8,435 bases of DNA. Origin: Rhodobacteraceae bacterium UBA1957. GTDB lineage: Bacteria; Pseudomonadota; Alphaproteobacteria; Rhodobacterales; Rhodobacteraceae. The notes below the pieces were generated by a model. It saw only the letters and a list, made by a program, of their open reading frames with translations, searched no databases and was not told the origin of the DNA. The position numbers and the translations under genes were made by a program. This document shows positions 2,140 to 7,383 of this stretch, in pieces. The stretch's first letter is position 1. Each line of letters opens with the position of its first letter. The DNA is taken from NCBI GenBank assembly GCA_002336405.1, contig DDEJ01000091.1:1-8435 (forward strand), given 5' to 3'.

Positions 2140-3270
2140 ATGAGACAAAATCAAAGCCTTCTGTTTGTCACTGGAACCCGCGCCGATTTCGGTAAAATAG
2201 AGCCGCTGGCGCGCGCCGCCGTGCTGCATGGCTTTGAGGTGTCTTTTTTTGTTACCGGCATGCATATGATGCACAGCTACGGATTGACCAAACTCGAGGT
2301 GCAGCGGTTGCCAGACGTCACTGTACATGAGTTTCTCAATCAAAGGCCGGGCGACCCACAGGATGTGATCTTGGCCAAGACCATGCTGGGGTTTTCCGAT
2401 TTCGTCGTTGAAAACAAGCCAGATCTGGTGTTGGTTCATGGTGACCGGGTCGAGGCGATGGCCTGTGCCTTGGTCTGTGCGACCAACTATATTAAATGCG
2501 CCCATATCGAGGGCGGGGAGGTTTCGGGCACCATCGACGAGGTTTTCCGGCATTGCAATTCTAAGTTGGCTTATTGCCATTTTGTCAGTTCCAAGTCGGC
2601 AGGTAAACGAGTGCAGGCGCTGGGTGAAGCAAGTGATTCCATTCACATTATCGGCTCGCCTGAACTGGATTTTCACGCCCAACCCTCGGGGTTTACCATC
2701 GACGAGGTCCGTGCCCATTATCAGATTGACCCGTCTGATTACGGCATATGCATCCTGCATCCGGTGACATCCGAAACCAACATCATGGAACAGCAGGCGT
2801 CTGATCTGTTCCAAGCACTCAAAAGCAGCGGTAAGTATTTTGTGGTGATCCGGCCCAATAATGACCCCGGATCGCAGGATATCATTACTGTGATTGATGC
2901 GCTTCCAAAGTCACAATTTAAAGTTATTCCGTCGATGAGCTTTGGTCGATTTTCCGAACTGTTAAAGAACGCCGCCTGCATTGTCGGAAATTCATCTGCC
3001 GGCGTGCGCGAGGCGCCGTTTTTGGGCGTGCCGTCGTTGGATGTGGGCTCACGCCAGTCCGACCGCGCTTTTGGAGTGTCTATCACCAAGGTCGACGCCG
3101 AACAGCAAGACGAAATTGCTCGGTTCCTGCAACAAAACTGGCACAGCAGGCACCCGCGGCAGACCGAGTTTGGCCATGGCAACGCCACCCAGAAATTCAT
3201 TGATATTTTGAAATCTGATGCGTTCTGGTTGCGCTCTATGCAAAAATATTTCAATGACTTTGCGCCATAG
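2140..3270 (+). CDS. neuC: UDP-N-acetylglucosamine 2-epimerase (hydrolysing), NeuC
   Basis: A 376-residue GT-B-fold cytoplasmic enzyme of the hydrolysing UDP-GlcNAc 2-epimerase family. It is predicted to release ManNAc and UDP from UDP-GlcNAc and so feed NeuB. Visible motifs are GTRADFGK near the N terminus, VHGDR with D102, HIEGGE at 122-127, LHPVTSE with H207, RPNNDPG, GNSSAG at 283-288 and DVGSRQSDR. The Asp, two Glu and His positions match the acid/base residues of this family. Length is normal. ATG 2140 is the first start after an in-frame TAA at 2128-2130, and the Shine-Dalgarno is weak. The 55-base gap after neuB holds no gene or terminator that I can see. Neighbouring neuB and the order neuB-neuC match the Campylobacter lipooligosaccharide locus. 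The end overlaps the next gene. A LegG-type enzyme acting on a diamino sugar is the main alternative. Confidence 0.92.
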   Translation: MRQNQSLLFVTGTRADFGKIEPLARAAVLHGFEVSFFVTGMHMMHSYGLTKLEVQRLPDVTVHEFLNQRPGDPQDVILAKTMLGFSDFVVENKPDLVLVHGDRVEAMACALVCATNYIKCAHIEGGEVSGTIDEVFRHCNSKLAYCHFVSSKSAGKRVQALGEASDSIHIIGSPELDFHAQPSGFTIDEVRAHYQIDPSDYGICILHPVTSETNIMEQQASDLFQALKSSGKYFVVIRPNNDPGSQDIITVIDALPKSQFKVIPSMSFGRFSELLKNAACIVGNSSAGVREAPFLGVPSLDVGSRQSDRAFGVSITKVDAEQQDEIARFLQQNWHSRHPRQTEFGHGNATQKFIDILKSDAFWLRSMQKYFNDFAP

Positions 3271-4525
3271 GCTCGCAGAGCATATCAGTCTGGCCCTGTA
3301 TCGTGCGGCGACATCAGCCCTGAGGCCTCTGCTGCCATTGCACCTTAAAAAGCGTCTGCAACGGGGCCGGGAACACTCCGAAAGATGGCGTGAAAAACAA
3401 GGGTTTTCCAGCCTGCCGCGTCCGGTGGGTAAACTGGTCTGGCTGCATGCTGTGGGTCTGGGTGAGGTTTTGGCGCTGCGCGGCATGATCGTGGCGCTGC
3501 AAACTTGCGACCCCTGCCTGCAGTTTCTGGTGACTTCTTCGACCACAGCCTCGGCCGAGACATTTGATAAAAACCTTCCCCCAAGGACGATCCACCAATT
3601 TTTACCGCTTGATACGGGGCGGTATACGCAGCGGTTTTTGGATCATTGGCGCCCCGACCTTGCCCTTTGGTCAGAACAGGACATTTGGCCGGGGCTGGTG
3701 ACCCAAACGGCGCGGCGGGGCATTCCGCAGGCGTTGATAAATGTGCGGATGAATGCCACTTCATTTCAACGCAAGCGTAAAGTAAAGGCGCTATACCGTG
3801 CTGTGTACCGTAATTTTGCGTTGATTTCGGCGCAAGACAGCGATACCGCTGCGGCGCTTACAAAACTTGACGCACAGCAAGATATACGCATCGACGGATC
3901 TTTGAAACCGCACAGTCCAGCGCTGCGTGTCTCAGCCCCAGATTTGGCGATTTTGCGAACTGCGCTGGCGGGTAAATCTGTTTGGGTTGCCGCCTCATGC
4001 CACCCAGAAGACGAAGCCATCGCACTGGCCGCGCAACGGCAATTATTGGCTAAAGCCCCCGGTACGTTGCTTTTGCTTGCCCCGCGTTATCCAAGTCGGC
4101 GGGCGCAAATTATTGCAAAGCTCTCTGGATTTAACGTGAAAGTCAGAAGCCGGGGCGAGCTGCCGGATGCGCACACTGAGGTTTTTGTTGCAGATAGCTT
4201 TGCCGAAATGGGACTGTGGTATGCGCTGTCGGACATGGCTTTGATCGGTGGCACCTTCAGCGATGTTGACGGTCACAACCCATGGGAGGCGTTGCAATTA
4301 GAGTGCGGTGTGATGCACGGGCCAAGGTACGGTAATTTTGTGTCGGATTATAATGCTCTGATTGAGGCGCAAGCCTGTTTTTCAGTTTACAACGCAAAGG
4401 ATATTGTAGACATATTGACGATGCAATCCTCCCGTGGGTTGGACGGCTATCGACACCTGCAGCGCGATCAAAGCGCGGCTTTGTCGGATTTGGCCGAACG
4501 GCTTGTCGGGTTGATCAAACCCTAA
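3254..4525 (+). CDS. waaA: GT30 WaaA/KdtA-like Kdo transferase family glycosyltransferase, first copy
   Basis: A 423-residue GT-B glycosyltransferase of family GT30. Known members move Kdo from CMP-Kdo to lipid A precursors at the inner membrane. Visible family features are HAVGLGE at 65-71 with the expected catalytic Glu71, FLPLDTGRYTQRFLDHWRP, SEQDIWPG (E141, D143, W145, P146), a WVAASCHPEDE segment, APRYPSRR and the C-terminal GGTF..DGHNPWEA (H341, N342, E345) leading to HGPRYGNF. The usual ExExWPN is ExDxWPG here, a conservative change. The N terminus has a short amphipathic or hydrophobic stretch (about 8-25) rather than a clear membrane anchor. ATG 3254 overlaps neuC by 17 bases. An in-frame ATG at 3218 would add 12 residues, and neither has a good Shine-Dalgarno. 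Family membership is firm. True donor and acceptor are open, because the gene sits in a sialic acid operon directly before a second GT30 gene. Confidence 0.85.
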   Translation: MTLRHRLAEHISLALYRAATSALRPLLPLHLKKRLQRGREHSERWREKQGFSSLPRPVGKLVWLHAVGLGEVLALRGMIVALQTCDPCLQFLVTSSTTASAETFDKNLPPRTIHQFLPLDTGRYTQRFLDHWRPDLALWSEQDIWPGLVTQTARRGIPQALINVRMNATSFQRKRKVKALYRAVYRNFALISAQDSDTAAALTKLDAQQDIRIDGSLKPHSPALRVSAPDLAILRTALAGKSVWVAASCHPEDEAIALAAQRQLLAKAPGTLLLLAPRYPSRRAQIIAKLSGFNVKVRSRGELPDAHTEVFVADSFAEMGLWYALSDMALIGGTFSDVDGHNPWEALQLECGVMHGPRYGNFVSDYNALIEAQACFSVYNAKDIVDILTMQSSRGLDGYRHLQRDQSAALSDLAERLVGLIKP

Positions 4526-4528
4526 TCG

Positions 4529-5917
4529 ATGAACAGGTCTATCTTGGCAAAACCGCCTCTTTTTCCACCTTTTAATACCCGCGTGGTTCTGCTGCTGTAC
4601 CGGCTGATTTGGGCGGTGTGTCTGCCATTGATTATGTTTTATCTCTACCGGCGTGGTAAAAAAGAGCCCGCATATTTCAAATTTCTGTCAGAGCGTTTTG
4701 GCCACCACAAACCGCGAGATGAACGGCATATCTGGATCCATGCTGTCTCATTGGGCGAGGTGCGCTCGGCGGTGCCGTTAATCGAGCGCCTGCTGCAAGA
4801 TGACACGCCAGTCGTCACCACCCATTTCACACCAGCGGGACGCAGCGAGGCTGTGCGCCTGTTTCCCGGTGCTGTCGCCGACGGGCGCTTGACGGCCTGT
4901 TATGTGCCGTTTGATTACGGTGTGGCCTTTGCGCGTTTTTTCAAAGCCTTTCGCCCGGTTTACGGATTGGTGATGGAGGTTGAATTTTGGCCTGGCATGA
5001 TCATGAGCAGCCGGAAATGTGGCGTGCCGCTGTATTTGTGCAACGGCCAATATCCCAGCCGAAGCTTTCAGCGTGATCAGAAGCGGTTTTTCTCACGGGC
5101 AAAAATTGTCCCAGGCTTTGCTGGCGTGATGGTCAAGTCTGAATTGCAAGCCGCGCGCTTTCGTGCGCTTGGGATTGACCGCGTGGCAATCACCGGTGAG
5201 ATGCGTTTTGAACAACCTATTCCACAGGCCCATATTACCGCTGCGCGAACTTTGAAAAACACCGAGTTTGGTGCGCGCCCGGTCATTACAATGGCCAGTA
5301 TGGTGGTTGGCGAGGATACAGGCGCCCTTGACATGATTGCAAAAGTGCAAAGCCACTTTTTGCAAAGAGGCTTGGACAAACCGCTGTTTATCTATGTGCC
5401 GCGCGCGCCCGAAAGGTTTGATGTGGTCGCAGGGATGATTTCGGAGAAGTCTTTTTCATATGTCAAACGCTCGGATGTGCTGGATGCGCATTTGCGGATC
5501 AAGCCGAGATCTGAAACCACCGCTGCCGAAAATGCCAAATTTGACATCAACGGGGTTGATATTGTTCTTGGCGACAGTCTGGGTGAGATGTATTTTTATC
5601 TTGAGCTTTGTGATCTGGCGATTGTCGGAGGCGGCTTTAGCCCGAAGGGCTCGCATAATATCTCTGAACCCCTGTGCCTGCGTAAGCCAGTGATCATTGG
5701 GCCAAATGATTATACAATCGAATTTCCAGCGCGCGAAGCTATGGCGCATGGGGTCTGCTTGCAGATGGATTTTTCGCAAATCACCGAACAGCTGATCACA
5801 CATCCGCTGCAGTTTGCCAGCAACCAACAGATGGGCAGGTTTCTGGATGTTCACAGTGGCGGCACGGCAAAAACTATTGCAGCATTAGATGACTTTATGT
5901 ACCCTACCAGCCGCTAA
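4529..5917 (+). CDS. waaA: GT30 WaaA/KdtA-like glycosyltransferase, second copy, membrane-anchored
   Basis: A 462-residue GT30-family protein, somewhat longer than the usual 420-430. A strongly hydrophobic segment at about 18-42, followed by RRGKK, looks like the N-terminal membrane anchor typical of WaaA. Next come ERFG, HAVSLGE at 71-77 with catalytic Glu77, VPFDYG, MEVEFWPG (E150, E152, W154, P155), NGQYPSRSFQR, TGEMRFEQ, YVPRAPERF, GDSLGEMYFYLELCD and GGGFSPKGSHNISEP (H376, N377, E380). It retains the ExExWP motif better than the preceding copy but lacks its NPWEA..GNF style. The two are therefore divergent paralogs, not a recent duplication. ATG 4529 is three bases after the preceding stop, so translation is probably coupled, and there is no clear Shine-Dalgarno. 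The last 14 bases overlap the convergent SDR gene. Known GT30 donors are CMP-Kdo, but a CMP-sialic acid donor is suggested by the neighbourhood and remains inference. Confidence 0.85.
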   Translation: MNRSILAKPPLFPPFNTRVVLLLYRLIWAVCLPLIMFYLYRRGKKEPAYFKFLSERFGHHKPRDERHIWIHAVSLGEVRSAVPLIERLLQDDTPVVTTHFTPAGRSEAVRLFPGAVADGRLTACYVPFDYGVAFARFFKAFRPVYGLVMEVEFWPGMIMSSRKCGVPLYLCNGQYPSRSFQRDQKRFFSRAKIVPGFAGVMVKSELQAARFRALGIDRVAITGEMRFEQPIPQAHITAARTLKNTEFGARPVITMASMVVGEDTGALDMIAKVQSHFLQRGLDKPLFIYVPRAPERFDVVAGMISEKSFSYVKRSDVLDAHLRIKPRSETTAAENAKFDINGVDIVLGDSLGEMYFYLELCDLAIVGGGFSPKGSHNISEPLCLRKPVIIGPNDYTIEFPAREAMAHGVCLQMDFSQITEQLITHPLQFASNQQMGRFLDVHSGGTAKTIAALDDFMYPTSR

Positions 5918-6695
5918 AGCCACCATCTACATTGACCATTTGCCCGGTCATATACCCGGCGCCTTCGGAGCATAAAAACAACATCACATCAGCAATCTCT
6001 TTGGGTTCGGCCATGCGGCCGGCCATGATCAGCTTGCCAACGCGGTTTTGAAATTCGTCGGAATGGTCGTTATATACAGCACCCGGGGCGATGGTGTTCA
6101 CCGTTGAGCCGCGCGCGGCCCAGTATCCTGCCAGCCACAGAGTAAGCCCGTGAATGCCGGCTTTGGTGCTGGAATAGGCCGAGAAGGATTTGAATGGCAT
6201 GTCTTTGTAAATGTCGTGGTGTGGCCCATTGAGCGCATACATCGAGGCCACATTTATCAGCGCTGCAGGGTATTTACCGACGATATCGATATCCATTTGC
6301 CGCGCGATTAAAAAAGCACCTGTTAGATTGATCTTGATGGTTTTTTCCCAATCTTCAAGCGAGGTGTTGGCAAAATCGGGAAAGCTTTTGCCAGCACCCA
6401 TCAATAACTCGCCGGTAATGGCCGCGTTATTGAGCACCACATTTGGGGCATATCCATCCGCTGCAACACGTTTGAAAATCTCTTTGATTTGGTCCTCATC
6501 ACCCACATCCAGATCGTAATAGACAAAATTATCGTTGTCTGCGAACTCCGATTTCAACGCCTCGCCCCGCGCGCCGGGCAGATCGGTTGCCACCACCTGC
6601 GCGCCGGATGCAAGCATGTTACGCACATAGGTGGTGCCCAGAACACCGCCTGATCCGGTGATGAAAATTGTTCTTTTTTCAAGCATTCTGGTCAC
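5904..6695 (-). CDS. Short-chain dehydrogenase/reductase, PtmA-like
   Basis: A 263-residue classical SDR with a Rossmann fold, predicted NAD(P)-dependent and cytoplasmic. It shows TGSGGVLG at 13-20 for cofactor binding, NNAA at 89-92, Ser151, and the catalytic YSSTK with Tyr174 and Lys178. The spacing from Ser151 to Tyr174 is longer than in most SDRs because of an insertion (about 154-170). The family ending VDGGFSGW is present. The start is chosen as GTG 6695, because AAGGAG lies 7 bases upstream of it. ATG 6686 would be 16 bases from that site. The gene overlaps the end of neuA by 17 bases. Its position right after a CMP-nonulosonate synthetase matches ptmA in Campylobacter flagellin glycosylation loci, where PtmA acts in legionaminic acid precursor formation. 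The exact substrate here cannot be read from sequence. Confidence 0.85.
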   Translation of the reverse strand: MTRMLEKRTIFITGSGGVLGTTYVRNMLASGAQVVATDLPGARGEALKSEFADNDNFVYYDLDVGDEDQIKEIFKRVAADGYAPNVVLNNAAITGELLMGAGKSFPDFANTSLEDWEKTIKINLTGAFLIARQMDIDIVGKYPAALINVASMYALNGPHHDIYKDMPFKSFSAYSSTKAGIHGLTLWLAGYWAARGSTVNTIAPGAVYNDHSDEFQNRVGKLIMAGRMAEPKEIADVMLFLCSEGAGYMTGQMVNVDGGFSGW

Positions 6696-7383
6696 TGGTT
6701 TGCTCCTTCATTAGAAATTTAACGATCTTAAAATCAAGTTCGCTGTCAATATCGACGCAGCGTTCTGAGGGCATTAGAAACGGCAGAACCCGGCCTTCAA
6801 ACAACGACTTGGCTGATTTTAAATAGGCGGGATCTAACACATAGGTCGAAGCGGCATGCTCATAGACCACCGGCGCTTGCTGGCGTGCCACGACATGGGT
6901 TGCGAGGGGTTTGCTGACATGCAATGCGCCGGTCTCGTCGGGCTCGACCAGATTAAAGTAAGGGTTTTTGCGCGCTGCACAGCATGACATCAACATATCG
7001 GGCGTTTGGATGGCAAACTGAGTGAGTGCGGCGTCAATATCGCTATCGAGCCTTAACGGCGAGGTGCAATCGAGATCGACAAAAACCGATACCGGGCCGG
7101 TGATCGCCTCAGTGGCCGCAAGCGCATGCTGCCAAACCATCCATTTCGACGCGGTGTCAGTGCACAGTTCGGGCGGGCGCATCCCGATATCAAGCGTTTG
7201 TTTACTGCGCGCATGGCGATAGATATCTTCATCATCAGTCGAGACAATCACAACATCAATGCGGGGGTTGCCCAGCAATTGATCCAAGGACCAATCGATT
7301 AACGGCTTGCCGTTCAAGGTGCGAAAATTCTTTCCCGGCACGCCTTTGCTGCCTTTGCGCGCGCCAATATGTCCGACAATCAT
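6679..7383 (-). CDS. neuA: CMP-nonulosonate synthetase (acylneuraminate cytidylyltransferase), PtmB/LegF-like
   Basis: A 234-residue nucleotidyltransferase that would activate a free nonulosonic acid with CTP to its CMP form. It is complete for the family. The CTP-binding loop ARKGSKGVPGKN is at 8-19. It is followed by STDDEDI, RPPELCTD, VDLDCTSPLR with D103 and D105 and R111, RKNPYFNLVE at 138-147, RQQAPVVYEHAASTYVL, and the metal-site stretch DIDSELDF starting at 211. RKNPYFNLVE, the Asn-free EHAAS stretch and DIDSELDFKIV resemble, from memory, the Campylobacter PtmB/LegF (CMP-legionaminic acid) type more than the Neu5Ac NeuA type. ATG 7383 overlaps the stop of the upstream oxidoreductase as ATGA, and an AAGG lies about 10 bases before it. 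It is the only cytidylyltransferase in the window, so it would also have to serve the NeuB product unless another exists elsewhere. Confidence 0.92.
   Translation of the reverse strand: MIVGHIGARKGSKGVPGKNFRTLNGKPLIDWSLDQLLGNPRIDVVIVSTDDEDIYRHARSKQTLDIGMRPPELCTDTASKWMVWQHALAATEAITGPVSVFVDLDCTSPLRLDSDIDAALTQFAIQTPDMLMSCCAARKNPYFNLVEPDETGALHVSKPLATHVVARQQAPVVYEHAASTYVLDPAYLKSAKSLFEGRVLPFLMPSERCVDIDSELDFKIVKFLMKEQTSDQNA
6703..6708 (-). promoter_or_regulatory. Ribosome binding site deciding the SDR start
   Basis: On the minus strand AAGGAG occupies 6708 to 6703, inside the 3' end of neuA. It is 7 bases from GTG 6695 and 16 bases from ATG 6686, so it supports GTG as the SDR start codon. Confidence 0.65.

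Follow-up and report, generated by a model that had tools for sequence, protein, structure and literature searches.

A GT30 branch usually found near sialic- or pseudaminic-acid genes in Rhodobacteraceae is predicted to attach these acids rather than Kdo

Enzymes of glycosyltransferase family 30 (GT30) are described as transferases of CMP-Kdo, the cytidine monophosphate (CMP) derivative of 3-deoxy-D-manno-oct-2-ulosonic acid (PMC5811610). In Rhodobacteraceae bacterium UBA1957 two divergent genes of this family, here called GT30a and GT30b, lie in tandem directly behind the nonulosonic-acid genes neuB and neuC. The DNA analysed ("the window") is the entire 8435-base contig DDEJ01000091.1 of assembly GCA_002336405.1, a genome that is 94.9% complete. 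What do two such enzymes do in a sialic-acid locus? An earlier note on this DNA, made from the letters alone, had described two WaaA-type proteins behind neuB and neuC with a CMP-sugar synthetase facing them, an arrangement that gene calls, PF04413 matches and a CMP-sugar synthetase match confirmed. It had also suggested that one or both copies might have switched donor from CMP-Kdo to CMP-sialic acid or a related sugar. For GT30b this idea is well supported by clade, co-occurrence, linkage and residues; for GT30a it did not hold, the protein being nested in WaaA. The branch represented by GT30b travels with NeuB- and PseI-type synthases, and we consider it probable that it transfers a CMP-activated nonulosonic acid to the lipid A-core and that GT30a is WaaA. 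The two genes are:

3218-4525, + strand: GT30a, likely housekeeping WaaA (Kdo transferase); PF04413, 160.2 bits (cut-off 23.9), and tree
4529-5917, + strand: GT30b, predicted nonulosonate transferase; PF04413, 150.8 bits (cut-off 23.9), tree, co-occurrence and model

Phylogenetic position of the two GT30 proteins

A search of the genome for PF04413 found GT30a and GT30b and no further gene. A first tree was built from 141 GT30 proteins, leaving out open reading frames (ORFs) shorter than 300 amino acids, the loci L095, L104 and L022 as duplicates, and, from among the 30 loci L035-L064, 21 (11 refetched family copies and 10 surplus class members; G and L numbers are our handles for genomes and loci). 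GT30a fell into a 35-row group nested within the WaaA proteins of Rhodobacteraceae. GT30b belonged to a 31-row group with a Shimodaira-Hasegawa-like approximate likelihood ratio (SH-aLRT) support of 100, outside the 109-row group holding the alphaproteobacterial WaaA. A later tree, which like the residue counts below used 26 of the 52 rows labelled W, 18 of the 35 labelled a, 5 of the 20 labelled D and none of the two labelled E, with 7 duplicate GT30b rows removed, recovered GT30b as monophyletic (71 of 71 rows, SH-aLRT 100), outside a WaaA group of 49 rows.

Because no NCBIfam WaaA equivalog cut-off was reached (best scores 328.9 vs 524 for GT30b and 272.8 vs 617 for GT30a), GT30a is named WaaA on the tree alone. 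Since it nests among ordinary WaaA proteins and no other GT30 of the WaaA clade was found in the genome, GT30a is likely the housekeeping Kdo transferase; GT30b would then be an extra enzyme. In one sample of 13 GT30b-bearing genomes, which counts G022 with its cut-off GT30b copy, 12 had no protein of the WaaA clade proper other than GT30a; in the thirteenth, G023, GT30a was not found and the contig breaks there. In G018, one of the family genomes in which no GT30b was found, an ordinary WaaA gene adjoins LpxK. Our first candidate for the sialyltransferase had been GT30a, as it stands directly behind neuC; we abandoned this idea once the tree had separated the two, with GT30a among the WaaA proteins and GT30b apart from them.

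The remaining GT30s of the 13 genomes are of two divergent types, named D and E here. The D type (20 loci, L155-L174) is found at a separate locus in many family genomes and forms its own clade, in which the catalytic Glu column is not conserved. The E type is known from two copies (L113:7028-8476 and L018:4792-6180), one of which adjoins a KdsB gene in G010.

Co-occurrence and linkage of GT30b with NeuB

The distribution of GT30b was surveyed in 394 family genomes representing 393 genera. GT30b was counted at a score of at least 298 bits with a GT30b profile, so that the cut-off copy of G022 counted as absent, and window-type NeuB at 60% or more identity to the NeuB of the window. By these measures GT30b was present in 70 genomes (next matches at most 190 bits, among the matches listed) and window-type NeuB in 62. 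Both were present in 58, GT30b only in 12, NeuB only in 4 and neither in 320, with a Fisher p of 2.9e-52, a value that ignores shared ancestry. Some NeuB-family synthase was found in 67 of the 70 GT30b genomes, 9 of the 12 without window-type NeuB having another one. In 55 of the 67 the two genes share a contig and in 50 they are within 10 kilobases of each other; in 12 they are on different contigs. Class-wide, only 3 of 289 genomes scored as GT30b-like (at least 628 bits), all of the window's family, and the next match scored 226.

In seven relatives the fetched locus contained the GT30 pair without neuBC (L016, L020, L021, L022, L024, L030 and L031). At least four of them are close kin, and in six of the seven a NeuB 75-77% identical to that of the window is encoded elsewhere in the genome; no such NeuB was found in the L021 genome. 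In G046, G004 and L019 GT30b is located apart from neuB-neuC-GT30a. Genes for a glucose-methanol-choline (GMC) oxidoreductase and a DegT aminotransferase are its neighbours both in G046 (L106:8401-13029) and in G004 (L097:8779-13449); in G046 a CMP-sugar synthetase gene stands there too. Genes for such GMC oxidoreductases, DegT aminotransferases and CMP-sugar synthetases form one cluster with neuB, neuC and GT30b, and without GT30a, in L252, L253 and L265; L252 and L253 come from the same two genomes as L012 and L014, those of isolates AG-911-I18 and AG-916-E11. By analogy with the pathway to 8-amino-8-deoxy-Kdo (Kdo8N), the oxidoreductase and aminotransferase genes beside GT30b hint at a nonulosonic or related acid that bears an amino modification.

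The earlier note had asked for a third, housekeeping waaA elsewhere in the genome; none was found. It had also asked whether a GT30 tree would show the two in clades that co-occur with neuB and neuC; GT30b forms a separate clade present in 58 of 62 NeuB genomes, and GT30a is nested in ordinary WaaA. As evidence against its idea it had named a genome with no third waaA, in which one copy alone serves as Kdo transferase and the second is missing from the sialic-acid loci of relatives. The first half of this description applies, no third waaA having been found; the second does not.

Gene maps were made with a home-made ORF picker. One map set contains some errors in GC-rich loci; another misses some genes, e.g. 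the GT30b of L261, which was found separately. Behind neuB-neuC-GT30a, short remnants of GT30b (in L010) and of the CMP-sugar synthetase gene were seen at L010:11277-11882 and L105:6963-7157; the L105 genome has an intact GT30b elsewhere.

A GT30b subclade linked to pseudaminic-acid genes

Nine of the 71 GT30b rows form a subclade that is sister to the other 62 (support 99 for both). At seven loci of this Pse-type subclade (L257-L263) a PseI-type synthase gene lies 24-1075 bases from GT30b. The seven synthases matched best as PseI, with 314-339 bits as compared with 263-285 for the NeuB model, all slightly below the PseI cut-off of 340.25. The accompanying enzymes, of which two copies each were scanned, exceeded their cut-offs: PseB with 539.7 and 543.2 bits (cut-off 407.75), PseC with 519.9 and 516.5 (423.5) and PseF with 320.1 and 314.1 (205.7). 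In L257 the genes PseB-PseC-PseF-PseI make up a complete operon with GT30b behind it; judged by homology, the gene order of L259 is identical. On the short contigs of the other two Pse-type rows, L264 and L275, no synthase was found. Since the sister subclade is linked to Pse genes, the partner of GT30b is a kind of acid and not one sugar. The exceptional genome G057 has a NeuB-type GT30b and a synthase that is 31% identical to that of the window and scores best as NeuB (295.8 vs 222.7), which fits the NeuB-type pairing.

Residues of the active site and predicted fold

In WaaA of Aquifex, Ala replacements revealed the importance of Gly30, Glu31, Glu98, Lys162 and Arg212 (PMC6286764). According to the same paper Kdo may be positioned by Glu98 and Lys162, and contacts to CMP are made by Arg212, Asn273 and Glu276. 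Alignment to the structure 2xci showed that GT30b retains the equivalents of Glu31, Glu98, Arg212, Asn273 and Glu276. Both proteins of the window have the catalytic Glu, as the earlier note had read (E71 and E77), and the coordinates given in the note are also right. E71 of GT30a was counted from position 3254, an in-frame internal ATG, and is E83 in the form starting at 3218. The positions of GT30b discussed here are:

4757..4759, + strand: Glu77, equivalent to Aquifex Glu31, the proposed catalytic base; kept in 71 of 71 rows
5048..5050, + strand: Gln174, aligned with E. coli WaaA Arg154
5204..5206, + strand: Arg226, aligned with Aquifex Lys162, which is proposed to position Kdo

The CMP-binding residues Arg292, Asn377 and Glu380 of GT30b are kept apart from one or two gapped rows. 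Other positions have changed. At the Lys162 position all 44 WaaA rows have Lys, 60 of 62 NeuB-type GT30b rows have Arg, and 8 of 9 Pse-type rows have Lys. At the Arg154 position 43 of 44 WaaA rows have Arg; Gln stands there in 61 of 62 NeuB-type rows and Asn in 8 of 9 Pse-type rows. His241, present in 44 of 44 WaaA rows, is lost in all 71 GT30b rows, and the Gln183 position (Gln in 41 of 44 WaaA rows) is Lys in all 71. The CMP site thus appears to be kept, and residues predicted to lie on the sugar side of the pocket are altered and depend on the partner synthase, as a switched donor would require.

A model of GT30b had a predicted local distance difference test (pLDDT) score of 90.8. Its best PDB match was Aquifex WaaA (2xci; E 9.1e-19, template modelling score by target 0.69). 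GT30b also keeps Ser74, equivalent to Aquifex Ser28, a proposed contact to the 1-phosphate of lipid IVA.

Other genes of the window

On the + strand neuB, neuC, GT30a and GT30b follow each other; three genes on the - strand converge on them:

1035-2084, + strand: NeuB-type nonulosonate synthase; PF03102, 223.3 bits; TIGR03569, 343.1, below the cut-off of 399.65
2140-3270, + strand: NeuC, hydrolysing UDP-GlcNAc 2-epimerase; TIGR03568, 345.8 bits, above the cut-off of 235.9
5904-6695, - strand: short-chain dehydrogenase/reductase (SDR) oxidoreductase, possible sugar-modifying enzyme; PF13561, 138.2 bits; adjoins the synthetase in relatives too
6679-7383, - strand: CMP-sugar synthetase, likely CMP-nonulosonate synthetase; PF02348, 60.3 bits
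7380-8333, - strand: Gfo/Idh/MocA-type oxidoreductase, possible sugar-modifying enzyme; PF01408, 26.1 bits (cut-off 24)

The best NCBIfam match of the synthetase was PseF, a weak one (76.1 vs a cut-off of 205.7). The order of the seven genes is not an assembly accident because it recurs, with 83-97% protein identity, in L004 (NYVC01000110.1). Rhodobacter aestuarii (L017) has the locus as well.

Upstream of neuB an lpxL-like lipid A acyltransferase gene (127-858, + strand) is broken by in-frame TAG codons. The copy in L004 is uninterrupted, and the window copy is either a decaying gene or contains a sequencing error.

Another contig of the genome carries a KdsB-like gene (152.9 bits, slightly below the cut-off of 155.2), so CMP-Kdo is probably made. 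With this gene present we discarded the idea that the Kdo pathway was lost and the GT30s were left with a new donor.

Other candidate transferases

Sialyltransferases are grouped into families GT29, GT38, GT42, GT52 and GT80 (PMC12887879). The earlier note had seen none of these in the window, and indeed no Pfam match to any of them was found in its nine ORFs (GT38 and GT80 were searched in the window only). GT29, GT42 and GT52 were not found in the genome; for GT42 the 14 control genomes were silent, with one match among 100 relatives, and for GT52 the control was wholly silent. GT29-like genes (PF00777), which are of the eukaryotic-type sialyltransferase kind, occur in 49 of the 394 family genomes, 39 of these without window-type NeuB. 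Their distribution showed no association with window-type NeuB (both 10, GT29 only 39, NeuB only 52, neither 293; p = 0.40), and GT29 was therefore rejected as a general answer. Two families near neuB in relatives, F7 and F9, were considered as hidden sialyltransferases. One member of each was scanned without a Pfam match; hhalign showed no likeness to the GT29-like family and related F7 and F9 to each other. Genes of the KpsC/KpsS type (PF05159) are present in this genome on contig C98.

Alternative explanations

GT30b might still use CMP-Kdo and act on an acceptor that carries a nonulosonic acid; it would then follow neuB or pseI through its acceptor and not its donor. It shares its CMP site and catalytic Glu with Kdo transferases, and the KdsB-like gene is compatible with such a role. 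This explanation appears unlikely in view of the differences between NeuB-type and Pse-type GT30b at the Lys162 and Arg154 positions and of the CMP-sugar synthetase gene that adjoins GT30b even away from neuB (L106). Alternatively, the two GT30 genes might encode no more than a pair of Kdo transferases, each adding one Kdo, and be only incidentally close to neuBC, in agreement with their common family and their tandem position in the window and most fetched neuBC loci. The co-occurrence (58/62 and 67/70), the sister clade linked to Pse genes and the GT30b clusters without GT30a (L252, L253, L257-L263, L265) make such a pair very improbable. There is also rather little probability that another enzyme, GT29-like, KpsC/S-like or of an undescribed kind, uses the CMP-nonulosonate and that GT30b does something else. 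F7 and F9, the PF05159 genes and the GT29-like genes of some NeuB genomes are candidates for this role; the lack of association of GT29 with NeuB, the failure to find GT29 and GT42 in this genome (the control genomes for GT42 being silent), and the presence of PF05159 in 58 of 101 genomes, including genomes where no NeuB was found, speak against them.

A nonulosonate donor for GT30b, the explanation we prefer, has to be set against several observations besides the shared ancestry behind the Fisher value and the sub-threshold PseI scores. No NeuB-family synthase was found in three genomes with GT30b (G208, G248 and G375), and no GT30b in three with window-type NeuB (G018, G290 and G387; the fourth is G022 with its cut-off copy). 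Ten of the 62 window-type NeuB genomes have a GT29-like gene, and in some loci such a gene lies between neuB and neuC (L107:7236-7970, L023:6609-7340 and L108:12336-13145). A replacement of Lys by Arg is a conservative one, and at the Arg154 position Tyr is found in the Aquifex enzyme itself. The exact acid is not fixed, because NeuB and the synthetase score below curated cut-offs.

The genomes of G018 and G290 are 97% and 100% complete. The neighbours of NeuB were mapped in both (L111 and L271), and one family was identified, a gene of the histidine-biosynthesis type (L271:12089-12892).

Proposed pathway

Donor, acceptor and sugar are predicted here from gene content, phylogeny, co-occurrence, linkage and residue changes. 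NeuC would convert UDP-GlcNAc (uridine diphosphate N-acetylglucosamine) to N-acetylmannosamine, which NeuB would condense with phosphoenolpyruvate to an acid of the N-acetylneuraminic type. Modification of the sugar may be the task of the SDR and Gfo enzymes, whose genes suggest a modified nonulosonic acid. The synthetase encoded at 6679-7383 would make the CMP form. Transfer of the acid would fall to GT30b, an inverting GT-B enzyme whose base would be Glu77 and whose CMP site is conserved. Since GT30b retains both the fold of WaaA and Ser74, the likeliest acceptor would be the Kdo that GT30a has attached, or else lipid A. A wider proposal is that GT30 holds a nonulosonate-transferase branch, both sialic- and pseudaminic-type, which adds the acid directly to the Kdo-lipid A inner core, perhaps in place of a second Kdo. 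This proposal is tentative, and we give it somewhat less than an even chance.

GT30b resembles WaaA/KdtA (GT30; Aquifex 2xci/2xcu) in PF04413, the GT-B fold, the catalytic Glu and the CMP-binding Arg, Asn and Glu. It differs in forming a separate clade, in following NeuB- and PseI-type synthases and in the altered Lys162, Arg154, Gln183 and His241 positions. With the sialyltransferases of GT29, GT38, GT42, GT52 and GT80 it would share a CMP-nonulosonate donor; unlike them, it belongs to GT30. A precedent for a nonulosonic-acid user in a family related to Kdo transferases is the pseudaminic acid transferase of Acinetobacter, described as a KpsC homologue (PMC12887879), whose superfamily is the retaining-type KpsC and not GT30. 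Among the matches listed from titles and abstracts of the open-licence PubMed Central literature there was no GT30 enzyme with a nonulosonate donor, which is not proof of absence.

The lipopolysaccharide of R. capsulatus, a member of the same family, contains sialic acid (PMC9631793, citing Krauss et al. 1992). This is a chemical finding, for which the relevant part of PMC9631793 names no transferase; the locus described here was seen in R. aestuarii. If our prediction is correct, GT30b would be a candidate for the gene behind the sialic acid that chemical analysis has shown in the lipopolysaccharide of Rhodobacter. CMP-nonulosonate would be a new donor for GT30 and an added route of bacterial sialylation and, should the inner-core route apply, lipopolysaccharide would be sialylated in a way unlike that of any known sialyltransferase family. 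The Neu-type and Pse-type enzymes would form a natural pair, in which the choice of donor may be readable from few residues.

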